A stretch of 64,000 nt of DNA, taken from contig WHUX01000212.1 of NCBI GenBank assembly GCA_015179025.1, forward strand, positions 27,162 to 91,161. The letters run 5' to 3'. Below, piece after piece: positions 9,021 through 52,800 of this stretch (its first letter is position 1; every line of letters starts with the position of its first letter). The notes beneath the pieces were generated by a model that was not told the origin of the DNA, ran no database searches, and worked only from the letters and a program-made list of their open reading frames with translations. Made by a program: the position numbers and the translations under genes. The DNA is from Terfezia claveryi (lineage: Eukaryota > Ascomycota > Pezizomycetes > Pezizales > Pezizaceae).

Positions 9021-11403
9021 CATGGCAGTTTGAACTGTGACCTGTCAGCCTTAGTTCTTAAAAAGGAGAAGGAATTCCTTACGACTCGTATTGCGCATCT
9101 CATATCTGCAAATGAGCCTCAAAAGGAACTAGCACCAGTACAATAAACACCAGCTTATCTACCTCCACGAGCTCTCAGCTGCAAAGATGCTATCCAAGAA
9201 ATCAGAGAATGAGCAAAAAGATGGATTACTAACAAACCAACATACCATACTCTCCAACCCAACATTTAGTTCAGTAACTTTACTGAACAAATGAGCACCC
9301 AACAAATAGAACAGGAGATCATGAATACTCCTGTTGCCCTACAACAACCATAGAATACACCTCAACAACCAGCTACAACTGCTAGCAGCAGTAATGCAAT
9401 TCCAATCAATACCGCCGCCGTCACTACTCGTTATAAAAAGCAAGTAGCCATTGATGAACATTCACTCTCTTTCATTCAGGACACCAAAACCTCTAGACAG
9501 CATTGTTATTTCTGTAAGTTCTCAGGACATAAGGCTTCTACATATAAGGAAAAGAAACTCACCATCAATGAGTTCAATATAAGGATTGAACTGACCCTCA
9601 ACAAGTTTATTGAAGAGAAACATATCAGTGACAGATGGGAGGATGACAAGGACTACTTCATCACATACTGCCTTGACCAAGGTACAGGTATGAAAGCTGC
9701 ATATCAATCATACATGAGAGTATGTCCTATCTGGAAGAACTACTATAATACCTTTGTGAACCATGAGGATCATAGAAGAAAAGATAGATTTTTGTATGTC
9801 AAGAACCAACAAGGACAATGGAGATTAGTCATACCCTCTACCTTTAACATTGAAGGTAAGAACTATCTCAAATTGGTTATTAAAGATGCACATAAAGCAA
9901 CCACTCATGGTGGCATTGAAAAAACAATGAAATATCTTACTGATAGATATGATTGCCAGTCCTTTACAGAATCAACTAAGGACTATATTAGAAGTTGTGA
10001 TACCTGTCAATGGACAAAGTATTCCAACAAGGCACCACTTGGACTCGTAACTCCATTACATGTACCAAGCAGGTCATGGACTAACATATTGATAGATTTT
10101 CTTAAGTTAGCACCTGTATTTACTAAGTGTTCAATTTTGTACCCGAATATTCCTATTGAAGAAGATTATATAGTTTGTATTTTATGACTTTAGACGAGTG
10201 TCAATAGACAATTAGGATTCAAGTTTCTTATTCCTGTCTCAGATAAATTCATAGCAGAACAATATACTGCTATCTTTGATACTTATGTAGTCCCAACTAT
10301 GGGATACTCTTTCTGTATTGTTTTTGACCATGACAATCTTTTTATGTCAACACACTTTCAAGATTAGGCTAGGAATAAAGGAATCAAGATGGAACCGTCC
10401 ACCATATATCATCCACATGCAGATGGACAATCAGAAATTGTGAACAAAGAAATTCTACAAGTAGCAAGAGTTTTTAAAATCGAAGGATTTGATTAGCTAT
10501 AGAAACTACCAGAGATACAATTGAAACTTAACTCTAGATATAATGCCGCGAGATAGAATAGTCTCTTTTCCACACTATTTGGATTTAATGCATATCTTGG
10601 CATATCGATACTTCCATACCTCATTAATGCATATGTACTAGCAAATGAACATCATGAGGTAATATCTAAAAACCTATATGATACCAAGAAGAATCAAGTA
10701 TCTCAAGCAAACAAACGACTACCCAATACAGCCAAATTTTCAGTCAGACAATAAGTTATGCTTTCCTAAAAAAATGTCAACCTGTCGAACGTCTCACTCA
10801 AACTCAAACCAAAATGGCTAGGCCCATCTCCCATTATTTCTAGTAATCCGAAATGCAATAACTATAGCCTAAACCTATCTAGTCAACCCAACCTCTGCCT
10901 CATATATAATACTTTTCATATTAGCAAACTCAAACCATACTATAAAAACGATCCTACCTAGTTCCCTCATAGACAATCTCAAGAACCAAGACCAATTCAA
11001 GATGATTATTATGAAGTTAAAAAGGTATTAGAATTTAGAACAGCTCCTCAAACTGGAGAAAGATAATATAAGGTCAGATGGCTAGGATACTCTCTTAAAC
11101 ATGATTCCTGGGTAAATGCCAAGGATATCACTACTGAAATTCTTCAAGACTTCTGCATAACCAGAATTATAGAAGATACATTAAAGAGACATTGAAAAAC
11201 TAAAGAAAAACAAGGACCACGAACCAGAAAGGAGATTAAAGCTCTCATTCAACAAGAACGAGATAGAATCATGAGTCATAGAAATAGTAAAGATATTTAT
11301 GTTAATGCAAATGTATTAACAATATATCAAATCCTAAGATGTATGGAAACCAATATAGCAGAGCAAGAGAAGTAAGGATAGGAAATCCTTCTATGTAGAG
11401 AAG

Positions 11404-24432: not shown

Positions 24433-25032
24433 GTATTGAGATATATGCGGAGTTCACACTTTGTGATATGTTTCATAGGAATTCATGCATTCGCGGGCAT
24501 ATATATATATATATAGGAGAAACTCGTACTTTTGGAGACATAGAGCAATGCATGCATTCGCGGGCATATATATATATATATGGGAGAAACTCATGCTTTT
24601 GGAGACTCACATAGATATGTGCGAGAAACTCATGCTTTTGGAGACTTATATATATATGTGTGAGAAACTCGTGCTTGTGGAGACATATATATATATATGC
24701 GAGGAATCCATGCATTCACGAGCTTATATATATATATACGAGAAATCCATGCATTCGCAGGCTTATATATATATATGCAAGAAATCCATGCATTTCTCTA
24801 TGTCTCAAAAAGCACGAGTTTCTCGCACATATATATATATGTCTCCAAAAGCACGAGTTTCTCGCACATATATATATATATGCCCGGGAATGCATGGATT
24901 TCTCGCCAATATATATATATATGTCCCCAAAAGCATGAGTTTCTCGCACATATAAAGTATATATATGCCTGCGAATGCATAAATTCCTACGAAACATATC
25001 ACAAAGCGTGAACTTCGCATATATCGCAATAC
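24433..25032. repeat. 600 bp imperfect palindrome built of alternating 25-mers and (AT)n
   Basis: The outer ends are inverted copies: GTATTGAGATATATGCGG at 24433 faces the complement of CGCATATATCGCAATAC at 25016-25032, and the next 60 bp also match inverted. Inside are 14 units of about 25 bp of two related types, GCGAGAAACTCATGCTTTTGG.. and GCGAGAAATCCATGCATTCGC.., separated by (AT)5-8 tracts at 38-40 bp spacing. The first nine units share one orientation and the last five are reversed; the switch is near 24795. Long open frames across it (IYIYI repeats) are artefacts of the AT tracts. The array stops exactly where the 8.6 kb TIR element starts. Confidence 0.85.
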
Positions 25033-25203
25033 TAGTCTCGGCACCCGACCCTCGAGCTTGGCAAACCAGCGAAGAGGGTCTGGTACAATATCTAATTGTT
25101 TGTGTGCCCACTTTTCCAAGGATTTTGAGGGTGTCACCAACCTCGACAAGCGGGTTTTTAGTACCAAATTCCTCAAGGCAACCGGGCGATGCAACCAAAT
25201 CCC
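25033..25203 (+). repeat. Left terminal inverted repeat of the 8.6 kb element
   Basis: 171 bp, beginning TAGTCTCGGCACCCGACCC and ending CAACCAAATCCC. It is about 95% identical by eye to the complement of 33482-33652. The inner boundary is clear because the sequences diverge right after AAATCCC. Confidence 0.9.
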
Positions 25204-25328
25204 GGCACCCCAAATCCCTAGTTTGACACTCAAGTAGTTAGATAGTAGGCCTTGTCATAAATAAACATCATCGTACATTGACCATCTAAACTGTCGCACA
25301 ACCTTCAAGATCCACAAATAAGCAAAAT

Positions 25329-28029
25329 ATGGCCAACGAAGAGAGATCATTGCTATTGGCGGATCACGGTGAGACTTATGGAGCCGTGCGAAGGAGGAGA
25401 AGTAAGACATTGGCGAGGCATCGTCAACAAAATCATTAATCAACCGGGGAGGAGGCGGTCCCGGGGCCATCTCAGCGGTCTGAAGGGTATCAAGGGATTC
25501 GCGAGCCACAAGAAACCCCCCAGAAGACAGGGGCTAGTAGGCCTAAGAAAAAAGAGAGTCAAGGAGCTCATTATAAAACTCTGAAAAGTCAAAGGGATCA
25601 TGCGGAGAAAATTGAGGCAATTATGGGAGTTATGAAAGAACATTACTCTAGCATCAGAGAATTCTTGCGACATTTCTTCAAGAATGAAAAGTTTAAAGTG
25701 GCTCACCAAAATTTTTACGAGGAAGGAGGATTCAATGAAATCTTGGGATTGTAGTTGAATTCTGATTCTGTGAGGAGCCATGATATGGTACATAGTTTGG
25801 TGGACTATGTGGAATGTTACTTTGAAGACGAATTCCATCAGATGTTGAAAGACAAAGGCTCGGTCGTACAATTCAACGCCAAAGGGCGGATGCTGCTAAA
25901 GGTTGAGGAGATTAGCAACCAGTTTGCGAAAATGTCCACACATGTGAAAAATGAGGCACCATTGGTACGGAGAGTCCTGAAGAGGTGTGCAACTAAGGAA
26001 GGGGATCCAGAGCGCTGGGATCACGGACAGATTCAGTGACACTTTCCTCTATTCTATCCCTCTTGTATAGGCGGAATCAACAAGCGAACGCATGGTAGAG
26101 TACTTTCAGCATATTTTATTATGCTTGCGGACTTCAACGTTCCGGGATGGATGTGTTAAATAAATTGGGTATGTATGTATCATATTCGATCTTCAATAAC
26201 CTTGCACATACATTGTCTGATCAAATGAGGGGTGAATTAATTGAACTGGTGCGGAAAATCCTATGTTGATGGAAGTCGATAATGTCAACAAGCATGTTGG
26301 TGTCCGAGACGGGTCATCAGTGAATCAGAGCTATATGTCGAACAGCACCAGGGGTTTTGCAACGACAGTAAGGGGTTTGCCAGCCGGTTTCAGAGGAAAT
26401 ATGTTACCTAGGAAATGGTATAAGCGTGGCCGCGCAAGGACTTAATGGGTCAGACATGATACCGAAAGATAAATCAGTAGATATCTATGAGGATTTGTTA
26501 CGTTTTGAGATCTGTGACACACTGTCTGCAATGCTTCTAGATGAACTGAAGGATTGGTTTAAAATGTTCGGGGGGAGAGATATGGGGTACCAACAGTTGA
26601 ATTGGTCGATACAACGAAAGCGTTGATCTACAGCCTTGATCTCATGGATTTCGAACAGATGTCTGTGGGGGGAAACTTGAAAAGTGTTAAACATATCCTT
26701 GAAAAAGATTTCCCGTATTCACTGGAATATTTGATTAAATCTTTAGTGCTGTATGGGGGGGATCAGCTTTTCGTCGAGAGCATGCACCAGATTCAGCGAA
26801 TGCAGGAATCGGATGTCGTAGGTGAAAATTACCAGTATATCGTTACGTTGTTAGGGACGTTACATTTAATGATGAATCTGGGAAAGTTAATCATGAAGCA
26901 GCACTATGGGGGTTTAGACTCCAATGATCCGTCCAGATTGAGATTCTTCAACACTTTACTAGGTACATGAGTGGTCCGCAAGGCGAGGCTAATCGTAATA
27001 TGTTTGTGTTGACAGGATTGCAAAAATTGGATATGAAAGGGACGGATTTCTGGTCAACTTCTTTATTGATCCGACGTTCCTTATCAGCGGCGTTGCAGTG
27101 TTGATGATATGTGAAACCGAGCAACCAGTATGGAGGAGTTTACAGTGAAAATTCATGACGGTTCGGTTAGTTGGGTCTCAGCGATGGAGGGAGTAATGAG
27201 GCAACTGATTTTAAACGGGTCAAGGAAATGAGAGATGGGGCAAAAGGCGAAAGGGATATTTCACATGAAAATTTGCTATTGTTCGTGCGCCTAGCGGTCC
27301 AGTTTGTGGGGTTGTATAAAGCTACAAGGCATGGCGACGTGGGTGTTATGCAGTGTGTGATGGATTTGTTAGGGCCGGAATTCTTGGGAGCAAAACAACA
27401 TAAGTATGCGTGGGAGTTATTTGAGGTTGGGTGTGGTTTCAAAAAGGAGTGGAGTCGGGAATTGCAGAATGTGGTCAAATGGAATTGGGTGATTAATGTG
27501 ACTGGGGACCGAGGAATTTTCTTGCTCTGGATGAGTACATGGAAGAGTTGGTCAGAGGAATTAAGGTTGGTGGTTATGATTTTGGTTCAGGGATCTCGAT
27601 TTGCTGAATATGGTTAACAAGGTATTATACAACCAGGCGGATCAGAGAGTTGGATATTTTACCCGGAAGGTAATTACAAGGTCAATACCTTACTTTATGA
27701 GCATCAAGAAGGATGTACTAGGTTGTTAGGAATTGCGCCGAAATCCGGCCATCATACTAGAAGTGAGGTTTGACAGATGTCAAGGCTTTGGTCCGCAAGC
27801 TTTTGCAGAATGGGTGGGGAAAGTGGTACCAGGTAGGGGTGTTATGGGTGAGACCTATAAGGAGTGTATCGACTTATGCAGAAAGGGTGCGATGAGTTGG
27901 GTGAAGGATTTATTGGGAAAGATTCCTTAGAAAGAGTGCAGGTTTAGATGATGAAGGGGACATGGATTTAGACAACGAAGTAGTGGGCTTCAGTGATGAT
28001 TCTTCGGATGACAAGGTTACGATTAGGTG
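25329..28029 (+). pseudogene. DUF6589-type protein gene, decayed
   Basis: The ATG at 25329 (MANEERSLLLADHGETYG) is the first plausible start after the left TIR. Recognisable segments follow: a helical N-terminal region (25440-26039), DNVNKHVGVRDGSS with a downstream STRG (26272-26370), YGGDQLFVESMHQIQR (26752-26800), LLGTLHLMMNLGK (26848-26886), GDVGVMQCVMDLLGPEFLG (27334-27390), NWVINVTGD (27485-27511) and an acidic C-terminal tail ending at 28029. Their order matches my memory of fungal DUF6589 proteins, which are repetitive and often lie in transposon-rich DNA. Stops at about 25436, 25751 and 26037 look like CAA/CAG/CGA transitions, and there are also frame changes. A transposase role is inference. 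Confidence 0.65.
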
Positions 28030-28034
28030 AAGGA

Positions 28035-30823
28035 CTAGTGGAATGATATTATTTGATTAATAGCAACGTAGTTTAAAGAATAAATCAAACACGAGAAATG
28101 AAAGCAGAAAAGAAAATAGAAAATCCGACAACAGAAGTAGCTCATGCGACTAATTTCCTGGGACAAGTATAGGTGCCCATCTGGAGCTGGTGTTGTTTGG
28201 CAACTTGCTTGATGATGGTGTTGTGGTGAATTGGCCCACGACTGTATAACCTGTAGCCTTCCGGTGCCTCGGGTTCCAGGTTGAAGTCTAACTCCCCTGT
28301 CCCAGGCTTGGAGTGATGCAACGAGTTCGTTTTTGGGTTTCGATACATTTAATCCACATTCAATTAGAAGAGGTCTCATTTGCGCAATTGTCATTTTTTC
28401 ATATTCAATGACGGTTGAGTTGTTAACTGAAGAATTATTGTTGGTAGCAGAGCTAACGGTTGTGTTCTCGAGTAGAGTATGGGTACTGCTTTCTGGAAGG
28501 GAATCAGTGTTGGTATGTGAGTTTGTTATATGTCCAGTAGCTGGTCCTGAGACTGTAGTTGGGCTAGAGGATTTCCTTGTTGAAGACTCAGTATTTGTTG
28601 TTTGGACATTGTTATGCGATGATTGGGACAACGCAGTATTGGTACTGTGTTGTAGGCATAGACGTGCTGTCGTTAGTGATTCCCTAGTTGCCGAGGGTCG
28701 GGTGCTGAGACTACTGGCTGCGACCTGCCTGATTTGATATTCTTCGACCTTGGTAGCCACGAGGTCGACGATCGCATGTTCTGTTTTGGCATTAACTTTA
28801 TAGATCTCTAGGAATTTGCTTTGATCTTACCATATTGACTGGAGACTCTTCGAATCCAGGGTATTCCTAGAATCGTGGCGATATCGTCAGGGTTTTGGAT
28901 CCCTTTGTAATTCGCGGCAATGGACTCTATTTGTTTATCTGTCAATACTGATTGTTCTGTCTTGATTCGGGGTACTGGAGTAATAGCTGCAAAGGTACGC
29001 TTGTGAAAATCTTTGAGTGCATCAATAATAATAGTTTTTACTACTGGGTCCGGTTTATGCCAGACTTTATGTGGGGCTATAGACGATGCATGCTGGTAAT
29101 CAATTACTAGGGGAAACATTGAGGGGTCCAGCCTCTCTTAACTATTGTCAATTTGGTACTGGTCACAACAAGCCCTGATACAAGGATTCTGTGGGATGAT
29201 TGCGATGCGGATCCCCAAATAGTCTAGTAAGATTTGACGACGACATTTTTTTTCGCCCTGGAGATTTAAAAGGCGATATAGGCCAACTTCCATTGCAGCC
29301 CGCATGTCTTGATGCATCACCTTGTCCCTTTGGTTTAACTGATTTTGTTTTCTTGTTAGACTTCTGAAATACGAACCGTGAAATTTGGATGTCGCCACGT
29401 TGCCACGACTACCAAAATAATGTGCTTCAGCGAAAACTAGGCAATCCCTTGGGTTTGGAGACTGCGCCCACAACGTCCCCATCTTTGGACCAACATATCC
29501 AGACAATCCAATTCGAAACCTTCCATTGGATGACTCGTAGCACATGGGAATCGTCATACCCATGCCCCATCAGATGTTAAACCAAGATTCTGGTTGTTCC
29601 ATTTCGCCAATCCCGCTAATGTAATCTTTCAATGTGTCAGACAAGTCGGCGAAATAAACTGCAATTGTTTTCTCGGCTACTGATTGCACATCCGTGGTTG
29701 CAGTCAACAGAGCCGTGTCAATTTTTGGTCGACGACGATAACTGCGGTCAAGGTGCCGACGTAAGTATTTGGCGACTTGTAAACACTCCTCGATCTTATC
29801 ACAATAAAGAATCGTTGGGGCAATAGTATCAATCCCAATACCCCGAATTGGGATCAAAAAGTCTAGATCTTGTTGCCCATCTCCTCGTCCTATAATTTCT
29901 CTAACTCCATAAAACAAATTCTTCCGGTTCGTTGTCTCACGAATGGTTACACTACAACCTGGGCGAAAACACAATGCTTGCTTGATTTGTGCTAATTTCG
30001 TGGCTGTCGCTATCGCTGTAAATGTCGAGAAAGATATATTCGGGAAATAAGGTCGCAAGGTATTGATTTTTGAATATTCTTCCGAAACTCCGATCCCCTG
30101 AAGACTCGCGCATTAGTTCACCCTTTGGAATCAATGCAATAGGATCCACTCCCTACCAGTCCAGAATCAAATGACCCTTGTCGGCGATGACGTATCCAAC
30201 GTCACAAGCCCATTACTTCCCCCCTTTAACAACCAAAGCCCAAAAATGCCCTTTCCGCGCCAGGGTTCGCTCTGGAGAAATCAGAATGATATTGTATTCC
30301 TTGTTTAATATCTTGTTGAAAATCCTGGGGTCCGCGGACACTGCTGCATCAGTCAAGGCCACTGCATTGATCTTTAGTTCATTCAGCGCAACCGCCATAC
30401 TTGTCGCCAATGCATTGATCGGGCAAATTATAATGCCGACCTTGCCTGGCAGTAGCAGAATTGGCGCCTAAAAAGCCAAACTCTTCCCACTCGATGTCCC
30501 CGCCACACAGGCCACGTCTCTGCCCATAAGGATGGCCATTGCCGCCCGAATTTGAAATGGATACATGTCTTTCCCACTCCTACACAATGACCATGAGCTG
30601 TATCCATCGAGAATTGCCTTGCATGCCACTCCTACCTCAACTTCACCATCAACTTCAGGATTTCTGCCTTTTGCTGATATTCCGTACTCAGTTCCCAGCT
30701 CTCAACCACCGAAGTTGCCATTTGAATTTCGTAATCAAATTGGTCCCGAGAGTAGATAAAATCAAAGATCCAAAGGATACAGGAGTGTTGTTGTTGTAAA
30801 AGGTTCTGTAACACCGACAACAA
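28035..30823 (-). pseudogene. RecQ-type DEAD/DEAH helicase with C-terminal SAP-like segment, decayed
   Basis: Minus-strand segments in order: N-terminal part (30823-30632), a Q-motif-like YPFQIRAAM followed by Walker A AGTSSGKS (about 30500-30550), motif Ia region with LISPERTL (about 30270), a decayed DExH box reading DKGH (about 30185), motif III TATAT (about 30016), second RecA-like domain with ILYCDKIEECL (about 29800), further C-terminal segments (29563-28808), and a Ser/Thr-rich tail holding a SAP-like helix pair MTIAQMRPLLIECGLNVSK near 28412-28356. Several stops and frame shifts interrupt it. RecQ helicases unwind DNA 3' to 5'; similar genes occur in fungal subtelomeres and mobile elements. 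The lost acidic residue in the DExH box argues against activity. Confidence 0.7.
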
Positions 30824-31327
30824 AACAACGAGGCATTGTCTCCCAGACTACCCAACTACCTCAAAGACAACTCTGTACAATATCCTTATGACGACAACCT
30901 CCTTTTCAAACTATTAAGCTATCCCATACTGACAGCATTTCGTACTTATTATGATGATTGGCTTCTTGATAAGCACCTTGATCATAAGTTCGTAATATTG
31001 ATAACTGCATTTATCATAGCTTCGTAATGTTCATGAGCCAAATATTTCATATCTATATCAGTCTGCCTAGGCACACCTACACAATCCATATAGCCATAAT
31101 TTTATCACGATATATACTATTGATGCTGCGCTGTTAGAATGTAAACAACTATTCTCGGTAAACAACAACAGAAAAGTTCTAGTGCTCTCGAGCTTGGCGA
31201 CCCTACCATGCGACGCACTAACTTCCTCGACCACATATCACCCCCCGTTCACTTTTCCCCACACACAATCTCGGCAACCAAAACATCATACTTCAACACA
31301 CCTCCCCACCCTTGTACCATATCCCAA

Positions 31328-33253
31328 ATGGACACCAAAGGTGACTCCATTGCTCCCAAAAGGATATCCAAGAGACGACTACCTCCCCGTGCTGATGAGG
31401 ATACCGATTCCGACTCAGTCCACAATGACAAAGCCAGTGACGAGTCTGATTCTTACAACAACCATGATTTAGACATAGAAATGCTCGAATCCAAGCTGAC
31501 TTCCTCCCAGACAACTTCTCCAGCACCAGTAAGGCCCAAGAGAAACTTCAAGAAGCCCAAGAACTACAAGATCCCAGAATCCTTATTTCAAGAAGAGCCC
31601 CTCACCAACCTCTGTCCACTAGGATTCAAGCTTAAGGTGATGAAGGCGTTCCAACAGTCCAAAGTTTCTACTACCACCTATGTAAAGTACAACATCCGGG
31701 TTATCATGGCAAAGAGACGAAAGCTCACCCCCATTGAGAAAGAATTTATCCTCATTAAGACTTTTGGATACACAAAAGCTCAAATCAAAACTGCCGGAGA
31801 TGCAAAAGCCTCTGACCCTAAGGCTTCTAGCAAAGTTGAAGTTATCATCATTAAAGCATTCAAAAATGCAAGTGTTGAACCCCCCACGCCTCATAACTCA
31901 TTCTGAACTACTAACTGATAACCCCGTCTTTTTATAGCATACGTCCTACATTTCGAAACTCTTGCGCATGCAATTTGAAGGCCTTGTTAGACAATTCTGG
32001 GAGTTGCAAACCCCAGTAATCAAGGAATTCGCCACCAACTGGGCCACTCAGGCCAAACTCAGAGCCCCTGAACCCGTTCTCACTGGCAACCAACTTGTTG
32101 CCACTCCAAATCAAATCAAATGCATGTTCCTCAAAGACAATACCAAATTGATCTCCGACATTTGGGCCCCAATTCTCAATGTTTACACTGAACACATTCT
32201 CCTCAATGACCCCGAGTGGGCTCAATATTTTACAGAATGTACTGCAATCATCCTCTGCCATCTCCTCACTGCCTGGTTCAAACTGCCGAACCCTCTGGAC
32301 GAAATTCAGAAACTACTTACCTATGTCGGCCAACGTAGTATGTCTGGATTCCCTTTAACTTCTCCGCAAATTGGCGACCACATTGCTCAAGCAGATTTCA
32401 TCCCAACCCCAGTGACTTGGCCAAAGTTTAATAGGCCAGAAAAATGGAATACGGCTCGAGGAAAATGCCCGATTTATGGCCAACTTACATATTCGGTGAT
32501 CAGTGGCGAAATCTCCATTGAAGAGATAGACCAATCCATTACCGAAGAAGGCTTGAATCCATACAGTGAAAATCCTTACCCGCCACCACCTGCCTATACT
32601 AAAATCCCCCCTGATCTCGTGCAACAAACAAATACCAACATTGCGCAATGGGTGATTGTCAGGATCAATCAAGATATCGATACTCTCATTAAGCAGGAAC
32701 TTAAAGCGAAGCAGTAGAAGGAATACTCTCTCAGCATCCTACAGGATATGTACACTTGGCTCGAGGAGCGTCAACAAGTCGTTAACGCTCGAGTTCATAG
32801 CTCGAACACCACTATCGATGCCGCCGCATTTGTTGAAGCAGTGAAGGACGAGTACACTCAAGCCGCGAAGCGGGAAACTGACCCAACGAACCGCCGAAGT
32901 GCACCAAGCATAAACATGGAAATGATTATGACCAAAGATGTCATTGGAGCTTTTCATCTAATTGTCGGCGAAATCAAAAGGCAGATGACTACACCCCTAT
33001 GCCCATCTAGCCCTTCCCCCATTGTACTCCTCCTGTGGTCCCTCCTATGGCCTGTCAACAGGCTACACCCACTGACAACCCCACATCTCCATCCAATCAT
33101 AACCATTCCGAATCTCCTGGGTCAAGCACCGCATCCCCGAAGCCAGTGGTGGATGGGAATGCTCCCCTGATGCCACCCCCGCCACTTCCCCTGCATGTGA
33201 GGGCACAAACCCAAGCGGCTGCCAGCTGCTTGGACCTTTCCACTCAGGCGTAA
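31328..33253 (+). pseudogene. Unrecognised third gene of the 8.6 kb element
   Basis: ATG at 31328 (MDTKGDSIAPKRISKRR) opens a charged N-terminal part, with an acidic D/S/E-rich stretch and a lysine-rich block, to about 31890. A probable intron (branch-like ACTAACTGAT, acceptor TTTTTATAG at 31938) leads into 31939-32717, a frame rich in Trp, Pro and Asn that looks globular. A single TAG at 32715-32717 interrupts the same frame, which continues to about 32990 with a helical, charged part; a proline-rich tail lies in another frame (33035-33253). I do not recognise the family. Its basic N-terminus would suit a nucleic-acid-binding accessory factor, but that is a guess. Confidence 0.55.
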
Positions 33254-33481
33254 ATACTATCACATTGAATGATAGTCATACCAAAAAATCTGGCGCTCAT
33301 TTTCTTCTTATTTTCTTTTCACTAGCAAAATTGTCTTTGTAAAGCCAAAGTTGACATCTTGGTGGAGGTCATTTACGGAATTACCATCAGAATAAAAACA
33401 TTAGCTATTTAATTCAATGAATCAAATGAAATGTATGCACTCGTAATTTATTGATCTTGCTAATTTTCGTTGAGTGAAGTG

Positions 33482-33652
33482 GGGATTTGGTTGCGTCGCC
33501 CGGTTGCCTTGGGGAATTTGGCACTAAAAACCCGCTTGTCGAGGTTGGTGACACCCTCAAAATCCTTGGAAAAGTGGGCACACAAACAATTAGATATTGT
33601 ACTAGACCCTCTTCGCTGGTTTGCCAAGCTCGAGGGTCGGGTGCCGAGACTA
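33482..33652 (-). repeat. Right terminal inverted repeat of the 8.6 kb element
   Basis: Inverted match of 25033-25203, ending CCGAGACTA at 33652. The PLC-like gene's stop codon is only about 200 bp beyond it. Confidence 0.9.
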
Positions 33653-33853
33653 ATATACATGTACTCGTTGCGCTGTTGATGTGGAGAGCATGTCCGTGGT
33701 TGAATACAGCAAAGCAAAAAATTCGGCCAGGCAGACATATCTGTACATACATCACTCAAGACAGACGGATGAAGCAAACGGGCTTTTCCCCGGGTATTAT
33801 CCATTCCTTGTAGCTAATTTTGAGCAATTACAATTTGTAACACAGCAAAACAA

Positions 33854-35219
33854 TCAATTCCAAAGATTTGCCCAATCACCGCTTGCAAGAATCCAATCAC
33901 CCCATTTTGGAGACAAGCCTTGGTTGTCAATCTTGAATAATAGCTCATCCAGGGCTCGTTCACCTCCGGACTTACCTCTGGTGCCCCGTGTTTCATCTTC
34001 AGTCTGCGTTGGGGTCGGCGGAGGTGGCACTCGATTGACCGGATCCGTAACATTGTTCAGGGCGTCGATTGTGGCGATTGGATTGCCGTCATTGAAAAAG
34101 TCGACCAGGACAAAGGTTGGCACCCGGGGCGGTAGAAGGGCCTCCCAGTCACTTGAATCCTTGCACGTTTCTAGACCGGTGGTTAGAGAGGGACCATTGG
34201 TATCTGTGATCTATTAAATGTTGTCAGAACGATGTCTGGTTGGCACAACACCCTCCTCCGCACAACACCCTCCTGTGGAGGAGGGTGTTGTGCCAACCAA
34301 ACTAATGTCCACTTTAAACGCTTCGGAGAGAAGTCTGCAATTACCGCTTCCACATATGGTCTCATCATGCCTAGGCCCATATTCACATACAAGTACCAAT
34401 TCAACAACGGTACCACCCCCTCTGATTGTGCTCTCGTTAACCCCCCTTCGCCCCTCAATCTCCCCGGTCTATCCACAGCACAGCTCCAGGCCTTTGGATC
34501 CGTATTCTCCCACTTTGTCTCCCAGATATAATCCCATTCAGTAAGCAGGAACGGGACGCTAGCATCATCTCCGCCTGCTGTAACAAATACAACTAACCGC
34601 TTCTCGTCCTTGATCATTGTCTGTAGTGTTGGAAAATTAGGGATCCTGGTCCCCGCTGGCGAGGGTACAAAAGCCAATGAATCTGTTCCGCTATTTGTGA
34701 ATGACGGCAGGAGCTCACTGGCAGTAATTCTATCGTCGTTGACAATCAACAAGGTAACCACTGTAAAATTAAAAATATCAGTACTTTAAATAACTGACGA
34801 GCCAGTTCGTTTGACATACCCTCGTTTTCATGCTGGTCCATCCATGCCTTGATATGGGACAACCAATCCTCCAAAGTACCCCCATCCATCAACGTGCAAG
34901 TCGAATGACACAACCTTGGTTCGCCTCCCTTGGAGTCTCTGTGTAATTGTCCCTGGAGTAACCGTATCCCCGCATCCAGCTGCACTGTGACATTGAAGTA
35001 CTGATTTCCTGAAGTTGAGAAACTTGTCGATTTGTCACGGAGGAAGGGGGAGTTGTGTGTCCCCAAGTGTGTTATAGCACCATAGGAGAGGTCGCAGAGG
35101 TGTGGAGAATTGTTACATGCTTTGGAGTCGTAGTATGCTTGTGATTGAAGGGCATGTTGGAAGATGAGGAGGGTGGAGAGGAGGAGGTGGGGGAGGCGGC
35201 CTGTACTGGAGAACAACAT
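33854..35219 (-). CDS. Secreted PLC-like phosphodiesterase (PI-PLC X-type TIM barrel)
   Basis: Three exons, 35219-34820, 34760-34345 and 34210-33854, give 390 residues with all phases consistent. Introns are 59 bp (GTATGT..TTTACAG) and 134 bp (GTAATT..TTAATAG). The start ATG has a CCACC context. Residues 1-28 form a signal peptide ([17 protein letters not shown]). The catalytic-domain signs are [11 protein letters not shown], with the first catalytic His, then [23 protein letters not shown] and [11 protein letters not shown]-terminal [19 protein letters not shown] strand-loop is typical of fungal PLC-like phosphodiesterases. The frame is intact. Substrate is not predictable; fungal relatives are secreted and poorly characterised. 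Intron 2 contains a small hairpin element. Confidence 0.85.
34231..34303. mobile_element. Miniature palindromic insertion in intron 2 of the PLC-like gene
   Basis: Two 22 bp arms, GGTTGGCACAACACCCTCCTCC and its exact complement, flank a 17 bp loop that itself repeats CACAACACCCTCCT. The outer ends (TGTCTGGTTGG / CCAACCAAACTA) are also nearly inverted. It accounts for about half of an unusually long 134 bp intron. Confidence 0.7.
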
Positions 35220-49879: not shown

Positions 49880-52800
49880 CAAAGGACCTACCCCAGGCCA
49901 TTTGTCTTTGTCTGCATTTTCTGTTTCTTCCGCTGTTGACGAATCTCGCTTGTTCAGCGAGCATTTTGTTGTATCTATCTCCCTTAATATCAATGATAGA
50001 ACAATCACCACGTCAGCCCTTATAGATTGCGGAGCTTCAGGAATTGCCTTCATTGACCAGGCCTTTGTCAGTAAATTCTCCATACCCACGTCAAAGCTAA
50101 AAACCCCCCATGTTCTGGATGTCATCGACGGTCGACCCATCTCCTCTGGGGATATCACCGATATGCGTGCGTGCCTGCCCTGGTCGGGGATCACTCCGAA
50201 GCCCTCCCGATGTTTGTGACTAAGCTCAAATACCCGATTGTGCTCGGAATCCCATGGCTAAGAATGCACGATGTATCGGTCAGCTTCGGCTCTTATACCC
50301 TGCAGTTCAATAGCCAGTTTTGCAAAAAACACTGCGGGAATCCGAAGGCCACCGTTACTGGGCTGTGTGCCCTGCCACCCCCGGTAACCTACCCGACCCA
50401 GGTGGTGCACCTGCCTGCGCACCTCGATGCCAATTCCCCCGTTCCCCCCGTTCCCCCCGTTCCTCCCGTTCCTCCGTTCCCCCCGTTCCCCCTACTCCCC
50501 CTGTTCAACCTCCCCCAAAGCCCCTGAATATTAGCTTTATTGGGGCAGGGCTTTCGCTTATCTCACAAGGAGACACAAGCTGAAGGCGCATGCCCTTTCC
50601 ATACATGAGAGGAACCTGGAAATCAACAAGATGCGACCTAAGGAGGAGTGGAAGGCCATGGTCCCAGATGAATACCACGAGTTTATTGATCTGTTCTCGG
50701 AAAAAGCCGCGGAGAAGCTGGCGCCCACCGACCATATGACCACACAATTCCGCTGGTAGAGGGTAAGACCCCCCCCTATGGGCCCCTCTACGGAATGTCC
50801 CGGGTGGAGCTGGAGGCCCTGAAGAAATACTTGGAGGAAAACCTCAACAAGAGCTTCATTCGCCATAGCTCTTCACCAGCGGGTGCCCCAGTGCTTTTCG
50901 TGAAGAAATGGACGGCTCTCTCTGGTTGTGTGTCGATTACCGGGGCCTAAACGAGATAACGGTCAAAAACAGGTACCCCCTACCCCTAATCCAGGAGACA
51001 TTAGCCAGGCTCTCCAAGGCCAAATGGTTCACCAAACTGGATTTAAGAGGGGCTTACAACCTGGTACGGATCGCCGAGGGGGAGGAGTGGAAAACTGCCT
51101 TCCGAACACGATATGGCCATTTTGAGTATAATGTGATGCCCTTTGGCCTAACCAATGCCCCTGCCTCCTTCCAGCACTTCATCAATGACACCTTGCGGGA
51201 TTTCCTCGATGTGTTCTGCACAGCTTACCTGGACGATATCCTCATATACTCGGACTCCCTAGCGGAACACAAAATCCATGTGAGGCAGGTGTTAGAGAAG
51301 CTGGAGAAGGCCGGATTATACCTGAAACCGGAGAAATGCGAGTTTCATGTGCAGGAGGTCAAGTATCTGGGGTTAATCATCACTACAGAAGGTATCAGGA
51401 TGGACCCCACCAAGGTTACCGCTGTCCAGGAATGGCAAATCCCAGCAAATCTTAAGGATGTCCAGGCCTTTCTAGGATTCGCCAACTTTTACCGACGGTT
51501 CATTCTAGGATATTCCAAGATCGTGGCCCCCCTCACAGCCCTGACCAAAAAGGACCGGCGATTCCACTGGAGTCCAGAAGCCCAATCCGCCTTCCAGAAC
51601 CTCAAGGAAGCCTTCTGCTCAGCTCCCATACTAGCTCACTTTGATCCCGATAGCGAGTGTATCGTGGAAACGGATGCCTCCGACTATGTCTCCGCCGGAA
51701 TCCTGTCCCAGTATGTCAATGGAGTCCTCCACCCGGTGCCTATTTCTCCAAAAAGCACTCCCCGGCGGAGTGTAATTACGAGATCTATGATAAGGAGTTA
51801 ATGGCCATTGTGCGAGCATTCGAGGAGTGGAGGCCACACCTAGAGTCAGCCAAGGGGATCATCGAGGTGCTATCCGATCATAAGAATCTTGAGTACTTCA
51901 CACCACTAAGCTGCTGAACCGACGGCAGGCTAGGTGGTCGGAGTTCTTATCTCGATTCAACTTCAAGATCAAGTATCGGCCTGGAAAAGCTGGGGGTAAG
52001 CCGGACGCACTGACCAGGAGATCAGGAGATCTCCCTAAAGGGGGGGATGAAAGGCTAAAGTACCAAAATCAGGTGGTACTGAAACCTGAAAATCTCGACC
52101 TGGCGGCCACTAGCCATGCTGATGCTGATGCTGCTGATGCTGATGCTGATGCTGATGCTGATGCTGATGCTGATGCTGATGCTGATGCTGATGCTGATGC
52201 TGATGCTGATGCTGATGCTGATGCTAAAGCTGAAGCGAACCCAGGAGCAGATCTCCTTCTGCGGATACAACGGGCATATGCGGAGGACGACCTGGTTAAG
52301 GATATAATCGCGCAGTGGAGTCTGGACAGCGCCGTCACACCAAGATTTCCCTAGCCGAGTGCACCACTCAGGACGGCCTCCTATACCACCTAGATCGCTC
52401 TATATACCTGAAGGGGAGCTGCGGAGGCAGCTGATCAAGGAACACCATGATACCCTGCTGCAGGTCACCCTGGAGTGGCTAAGAGTTAGAACTACTAGCT
52501 AGACAATACACATGGATGACCAGCGAAAGGAGGTAGAACAGTACATACGGAACTGCCATATCTGCAAGCGTGCAAAACCCACTCATCATGCCCCCTACGG
52601 AACTTTGAAGCCCCTGGAGATCCCGGATCGGCCCTGGCAACACCTGACCATGGACTTCGTAACTGGGTTGCTGAAGGACTCGGGATTCAATGCCATCCTG
52701 ATGGTGGTGGATCGGTTGACGAAGATGAGGCATGTTATACCTTGCCGAGATACCTGCTCCGCTCCAGAGTTAGCCAACCTCTACCTCAATAATGTATTCC

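Follow-up and report, generated by a model that had tools for sequence, protein, structure and literature searches.

A decayed transposon with DUF6589 and RecQ-like helicase genes in Terfezia claveryi, most likely of the AcademH lineage, and short terminal-repeat insertions across the genome

AcademH, a transposon group reportedly defined by Kojima 2020, provides the closest described comparison for the three-gene element analyzed here, which occupies positions 25033-33652 of a 64,000-nucleotide stretch of the Terfezia claveryi genome (the window, on contig WHUX01000212.1). In the excerpts used for this comparison, AcademH comprises helicase-encoding Academ elements with target site duplications (TSDs) of 9 or 10 bp, and AcademX elements encode a nuclease and have TSDs of 3 or 4 bp (PMC10045372); AcademH is recorded from Basidiomycota, Ascomycota and Mucoromycota, and the DEAD and Helicase_C domains are tied to AcademH and KolobokH (PMC10799480). 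Further papers, likewise used as excerpts, describe widespread putative nonautonomous insertions of Mutator-like elements (MULEs) and Academ in Marasmius oreades (PMC8290104), long terminal inverted repeats (TIRs) as typical of MULEs (PMC3310237), and Helitrons with an HUH nuclease and a helicase (PMC12730594). With a probability of about 0.7, our analysis indicates that the window element descends from an autonomous cut-and-paste DNA transposon and has since decayed, that AcademH is its most likely lineage and that it moved by the mechanism proposed below. Throughout, C denotes a contig, L an extracted locus and P a protein; the window lies on C127, and the genome searched is a 72.6 Mb assembly of 794 contigs.

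The element begins with TAGTCTCGG and ends with CCGAGACTA. An inverted-repeat scan of the window detected arms at 25029-25203 and 33482-33656 (175 nt, 97%), and the 171-bp arms bounding the element are identical at 167 of 171 bases, all 4 differences being transitions. Coincidence cannot account for this identity across 8.3 kb, and the TIRs are real. The near-perfect 171-bp TIRs around three genes that an initial annotation had described are thereby borne out, with the following features:

25033-25203, plus strand: left TIR, with the tip TAGTCTCGGCACCCGACCC
25047-25080, plus strand: subterminal palindrome of the left TIR, GACCCTC (25047-25053) and GAGGGTC (25074-25080); an equal stem in 46 of 1000 shuffles
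25440-28030, plus strand: DUF6589 gene, probable transposase; open frame from 25440, broken by introns and/or lesions, with uncertain start and end (crude exon models)
28035-30701, minus strand: RecQ-like helicase gene with a Zn-binding region and a SAP-like tail (Pfam, exon models, tblastn); probably dead
31208-33170, plus strand: third gene, modelled with three exons; a relative of P0011 from this genome, without a Pfam family
33482-33652, minus strand: right TIR, from the inverted-repeat scan and arm alignment
33605-33638, minus strand: subterminal palindrome of the right TIR; an equal stem in 38 of 1000 shuffles

Pfam recognized DUF6589 in the open reading frames (ORFs) 26563-26970 (6e-18) and 27171-27617 (7e-23), and the tblastn match of P0001, a 794-residue homologue, to this gene spans 25593 to 27565. 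The window helicase matched DEAD (2e-4 and 0.011), RecQ_Zn_bind (0.0095) and SAP (0.014), all below Pfam cut-offs, and its assignment as RecQ-like is firm only because the helicase pieces of its relatives show Pfam and PDB matches: DEAD in L032, Helicase_C in L029, L030 and L032, and SAP in L030 lie above the cut-offs, RecQ_Zn_bind lies below, and WRN, RecQ and BLM are among the best PDB sequences for one L032 piece. In a frame aligned with L029 (30% over 47 residues), helicase motif II reads DKGH in the window versus DESH in L029, and a TAA stands just upstream of the motif, unless it is intronic; the helicase is probably damaged and the window copy looks dead. A Pfam scan of the third gene's ORFs gave no family at cut-off, with one sub-cut-off lipoprotein match in one ORF (0.064); a further Pfam scan likewise gave the third protein no family at cut-off, and its homologues in the protein collection were P0011 and P0012 only. 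These profile searches, which had been proposed as a check and which gave a clear DUF6589, a sub-cut-off helicase in the window and no family for the third gene, together with the relatives uphold the predicted set of DUF6589, RecQ-like helicase with SAP-like tail and third gene. A convergent pair ending within about 10 bp, with the third gene divergent, had also been predicted. The orientations hold, the third gene diverging from the helicase; the tight tail-to-tail spacing, with model stops of the DUF6589 gene and the helicase at 28030 and 28035, comes from a crude exon model, another setting of which ends DUF6589 at 27617.

Further copies of the unit lie elsewhere in this genome. The 40 matches of a DUF6589 profile search fall into 22 loci by our grouping. 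With a helicase from L030 as query there were 22 matches at about 20 loci, and with the third-gene query P0011 there were 8; these searches score the best candidates only, and misses are possible. A helicase match lay within about 11 kb of DUF6589 at 13 of the 22 loci (C300, C235, C95, C151, C154, C6, C242, C62, C127, C792, C135, C778 and C31), and at all 13 the two genes stand tail to tail. The C235 element (L029), 8.1 kb long, has its own 141-bp TIRs (1551-1691 and 9509-9649, 98%) around the same three genes and is flanked by GGCGTTATG and GGCGTTGTG, an adjoining 9-bp duplication that has one mismatch. Where tblastn measured it, the identity of the element's helicase and third-gene pieces to those of the window is 24-52%. 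In the C95 copy, TIR matches 16.8 kb apart, one at 50819 and the other reaching 67651 (95% over 113 bp), enclose the three genes and an ORF that we read as a gypsy-type pol. C135 (L032) also carries all three genes, and P0011 is 100% identical to it over 695 residues. The third gene runs in the direction of the helicase in C235, C95 and C135, and in the opposite direction in the window and at C656. The search for further 8-9 kb three-gene units, suggested by the initial annotation, thus found the C235 element, and the divergent copies at C235 and C95 support its proposal of one large three-gene DNA transposon. That annotation had counted a TIR found only once in the genome as a point against a transposon. 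For the full 171 bp this is what we observed, the 35 genome matches being the two window arms and 33 limited to the first 31-45 bases; the same genes nevertheless lie inside related elements with other TIRs. A 7-bp subterminal palindrome is common to the three TIR types seen and is equalled in 33-46 of 1000 shuffles at each of five ends.

Other loci carry parts of the unit. At C656:44243-56802, TIR matches bound helicase and third-gene matches, with no DUF6589 match there. L094 and L095 (C6 and C154) hold DUF6589 and the helicase, and share an imperfect palindrome of 74 bp next to the DUF6589 gene; neither has a bounding inverted repeat of at least 20 nt in the extracted stretch, no third gene was found among ORFs of at least 120 aa in L094, and neither C6 nor C154 has a third-gene match. 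The C235 helicase gene contains a minisatellite-like repeat (L029:4852-5105).

Ten DUF6589 homologues, including ones from Kalaharituber, Tirmania and Terfezia, were found in the protein collection, and their consensus keeps the motifs LDNVNxMVGVRD, VGGDQLLADR and ENxLLFxRxExE, whose conserved acidic residues are compatible with a D-D-E triad. The initial annotation knew of no superfamily described as carrying these genes together; this is probably mistaken, given that AcademH has a helicase, 9-10 bp TSDs and fungal hosts. A helicase of the DEAD plus Helicase_C type is found in the relatives and falls below cut-off in the window copy; TSDs of the AcademH length accompany the relatives (L029, with one mismatch, and the short tip insertions described below) and not the window copy. 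Because helicase type, TSD length and fungal occurrence, Ascomycota included, fit the descriptions excerpted from PMC10045372 and PMC10799480, AcademH membership is probable and would imply kinship of the putative transposase with those of Academ. Relative to those descriptions, the present elements differ in the third gene of some copies and in the short TIR-tip insertions. An undescribed superfamily, in which DUF6589 is not the Academ transposase and the helicase and 9-bp duplication arose convergently, is unlikely: helicases do occur in several transposon superfamilies (AcademH, KolobokH and Helitron, in the excerpts of PMC10799480), some copies carry a third gene, and the name DUF6589 was not found in the literature searched, where PF20231/IPR046496 returned one unrelated optics paper, but all three features just named match published AcademH.

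We also compared the element with other known kinds. KDZ elements are defined by the KDZ transposase domain, and the Pfam scan of P0001 (E ≤ 1) gave DUF6589 (PF20231) only. The AcademX nuclease is XPG; no XPG family appeared in the part of the ORFs that was scanned, and the TSD here is 9 bp. Helitrons have no TIR or TSD, and here both are present, the helicase is of RecQ type and the Pfam scans found no Rep/HUH family. A MULE that acquired a helicase would account for the long TIRs and for the 9-bp duplications, which are typical of MULEs, but the 794-residue P0001 matches DUF6589 alone at E ≤ 1, with no MULE transposase domain, making this origin most improbable; the helicase is a further difference from MULEs.

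Short TIR-tip insertions occur across the genome. The 20-nt tip of family A has 48 exact occurrences and the 17-nt tip of family B 1,616, with none for either reversed control. We examined 40 of the 46 exact family-A tips outside the window. For family B we took 40 stretches, with 44 tips, from among the places listed first on C1 and C2. TSDs were scored as 9-bp repeats with at most one mismatch against shifted-flank controls. In family A, 29 of 40 tips proved to belong to insertions that measure 20-54 bp or 81 bp and are flanked by 9-bp repeats (control 1.5), about 25 of them independent, since the 81-bp insertion was counted from both ends and L014, L016, L020 and L051 lie in copies of one repeat. 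In family B, 22 of 44 were insertions of 15-58 bp between such repeats (control 2.5); a looser earlier scan had given 14 of 28 (control 1.2) and 17 of 48 (control 2.4). The commonest length is 33 in family A (8 of 29) and 28-29 in family B (8 of 22), and of 34 matches to the C95-type tip, 25 stop at base 30-35 and no match stops at 36-62, shorter matches being below detection. Judged by alignment lengths, 9 copies of a repeat contain one 34-bp insertion together with its 9-bp repeat and 7 copies lack it; the 9 filled copies may share one event. Both tips are present in L012, L042, L045, L049, L052, L066 and L092, and most inserts have one tip by reading. Ordinary two-ended miniature elements were rejected as an explanation of the partial TIR matches because of this one-tip majority and because, for 60 family-B-like tips in the stretches examined, matching 8-10 bp flanks within 12 kb were found only for the L029 pair. 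An insertion length set by the palindrome centre was also considered and dropped, as C95-type pieces end at 30-35 and the palindrome centre is at 27. Example tip insertions are L012, L018, L019, L023, L025, L045 and L066.

Several results weigh against an AcademH-type transposon that moved as proposed. The window copy has no target duplication (9-mers, at most one mismatch, up to 60 bp outside the ends), for which later loss is one compatible account, and no TSD was found at 11 of 40 family-A and 22 of 44 family-B tips. An AlphaFold model of DUF6589 from 10 homologues reached a mean pLDDT (per-residue confidence) of 43.4, too low to judge the fold, and a PDB profile search with DUF6589 found no relative by sequence, its 3 matches at E of about 1 being meaningless. 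In the best-candidate searches, a helicase match was missing at 9 of 22 DUF6589 loci and a DUF6589 match at 7 of about 20 helicase loci (C656, C734, C199, C788, C156, C338 and C423), and the third gene was present at only 4 of the 13 paired loci (C235, C95, C135 and C127), with no helicase match near the third-gene matches on C224, C445 and C175. In-frame stops interrupt the C235 DUF6589 and third genes, and an intact copy was not seen among the copies examined. Among 40 scored matches in the empty-site search for L029, only C679 spans the junction (77%, 36 nt short) and the rest cover one flank, so that this TSD is carried by its 9 bases; the empty-site check proposed earlier therefore gave little for L029 and succeeded for the one short insertion with empty repeat copies.

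We infer the following course of transposition. The DUF6589 protein, a putative DDE transposase, would bind the TIRs, perhaps at the subterminal palindrome, and cut at TAGTC...GACTA, with insertion into a staggered target producing the 9-bp duplications; the RecQ-like helicase with its SAP tail may unwind the ends or aid repair, and the third protein may be a helper of unspecified kind. At excision, the non-transferred strand would be cut about 30 nt inside the tip, and a single TIR tip, mostly 25-36 bp, would remain between two 9-bp duplications after end joining. A helper role of the element-borne helicase in break repair is plausible because, in the excerpt of PMC7776569, a Bloom-helicase homologue takes part in the repair of breaks left by the P element, which makes a 17-nt staggered cut. 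If the footprint model is right, the likeness to the Drosophila P element would comprise a long staggered cut and a Bloom (RecQ-family) helicase in break repair; the cut would be about 30 nt here versus 17 nt, the P-element helicase is host-encoded, and no membership is claimed.

We read the tip insertions as excision footprints of an approximately 30-nt staggered cut or as aborted one-ended insertions, and suggest tentatively, at somewhat less than even odds, that a helicase-bearing transposon group stamps a TIR tip of about 30 bp and a 9-bp duplication at each such event, leaving many tiny insertions. The main rival to footprints, in which a TIR end joins a 9-bp staggered target, about 30 nt are copied, perhaps driven by the helicase, and the end is released and end-joined, is doubtful. 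It would suit the single tip of most inserts, the excess of tips over elements (1,616 exact family-B tips vs 22 DUF6589 loci) and the empty copies of the same repeat for one insertion, but two-tip forms exist at the seven loci listed above, and the sharp upper length limit is easier to reconcile with a fixed cut than with random copying. Were the inserts minimal mobile units moved in trans, they would be expected to reach high copy number, to have 9-bp duplications and to include the few two-tip forms of 25-81 bp; as the inner ends vary by several bases and the second tip is mostly missing, this explanation is decidedly unlikely.

If true, the stamping reading implies a dedicated third protein together with either a staggered cut of about 30 nt or copying from one end driven by the helicase, none of which we know to have been described in such transposons. 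DUF6589, a Pfam family of unknown function, gains a probable role as a transposase, and the RecQ-like repeats of this fungal genome are tied to DUF6589 in a fixed tail-to-tail order. Should the tip insertions be products of the same machinery, they would document past transposition throughout the genome and give access to the chemistry by which helicase-bearing transposons cut DNA. For annotation, solo TIR tips may be miscounted as miniature elements.

The window itself contains a further tip:

28693-28713, minus strand: TIR tip resembling family A, TAGTCTCAGCACCCGACCCTC, in the tail of the helicase; no matching 9-bp repeat within 120 bp

Directly adjoining the element on its left, positions 24500-25000 hold 39-bp tandem repeats and ATATAT-rich inverted repeats. 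Family-B-like tips stand at 34304 and 35921 of the window; read from 34304, the tip is followed by a palindromic stretch and then the opposite tip, likely a miniature element.

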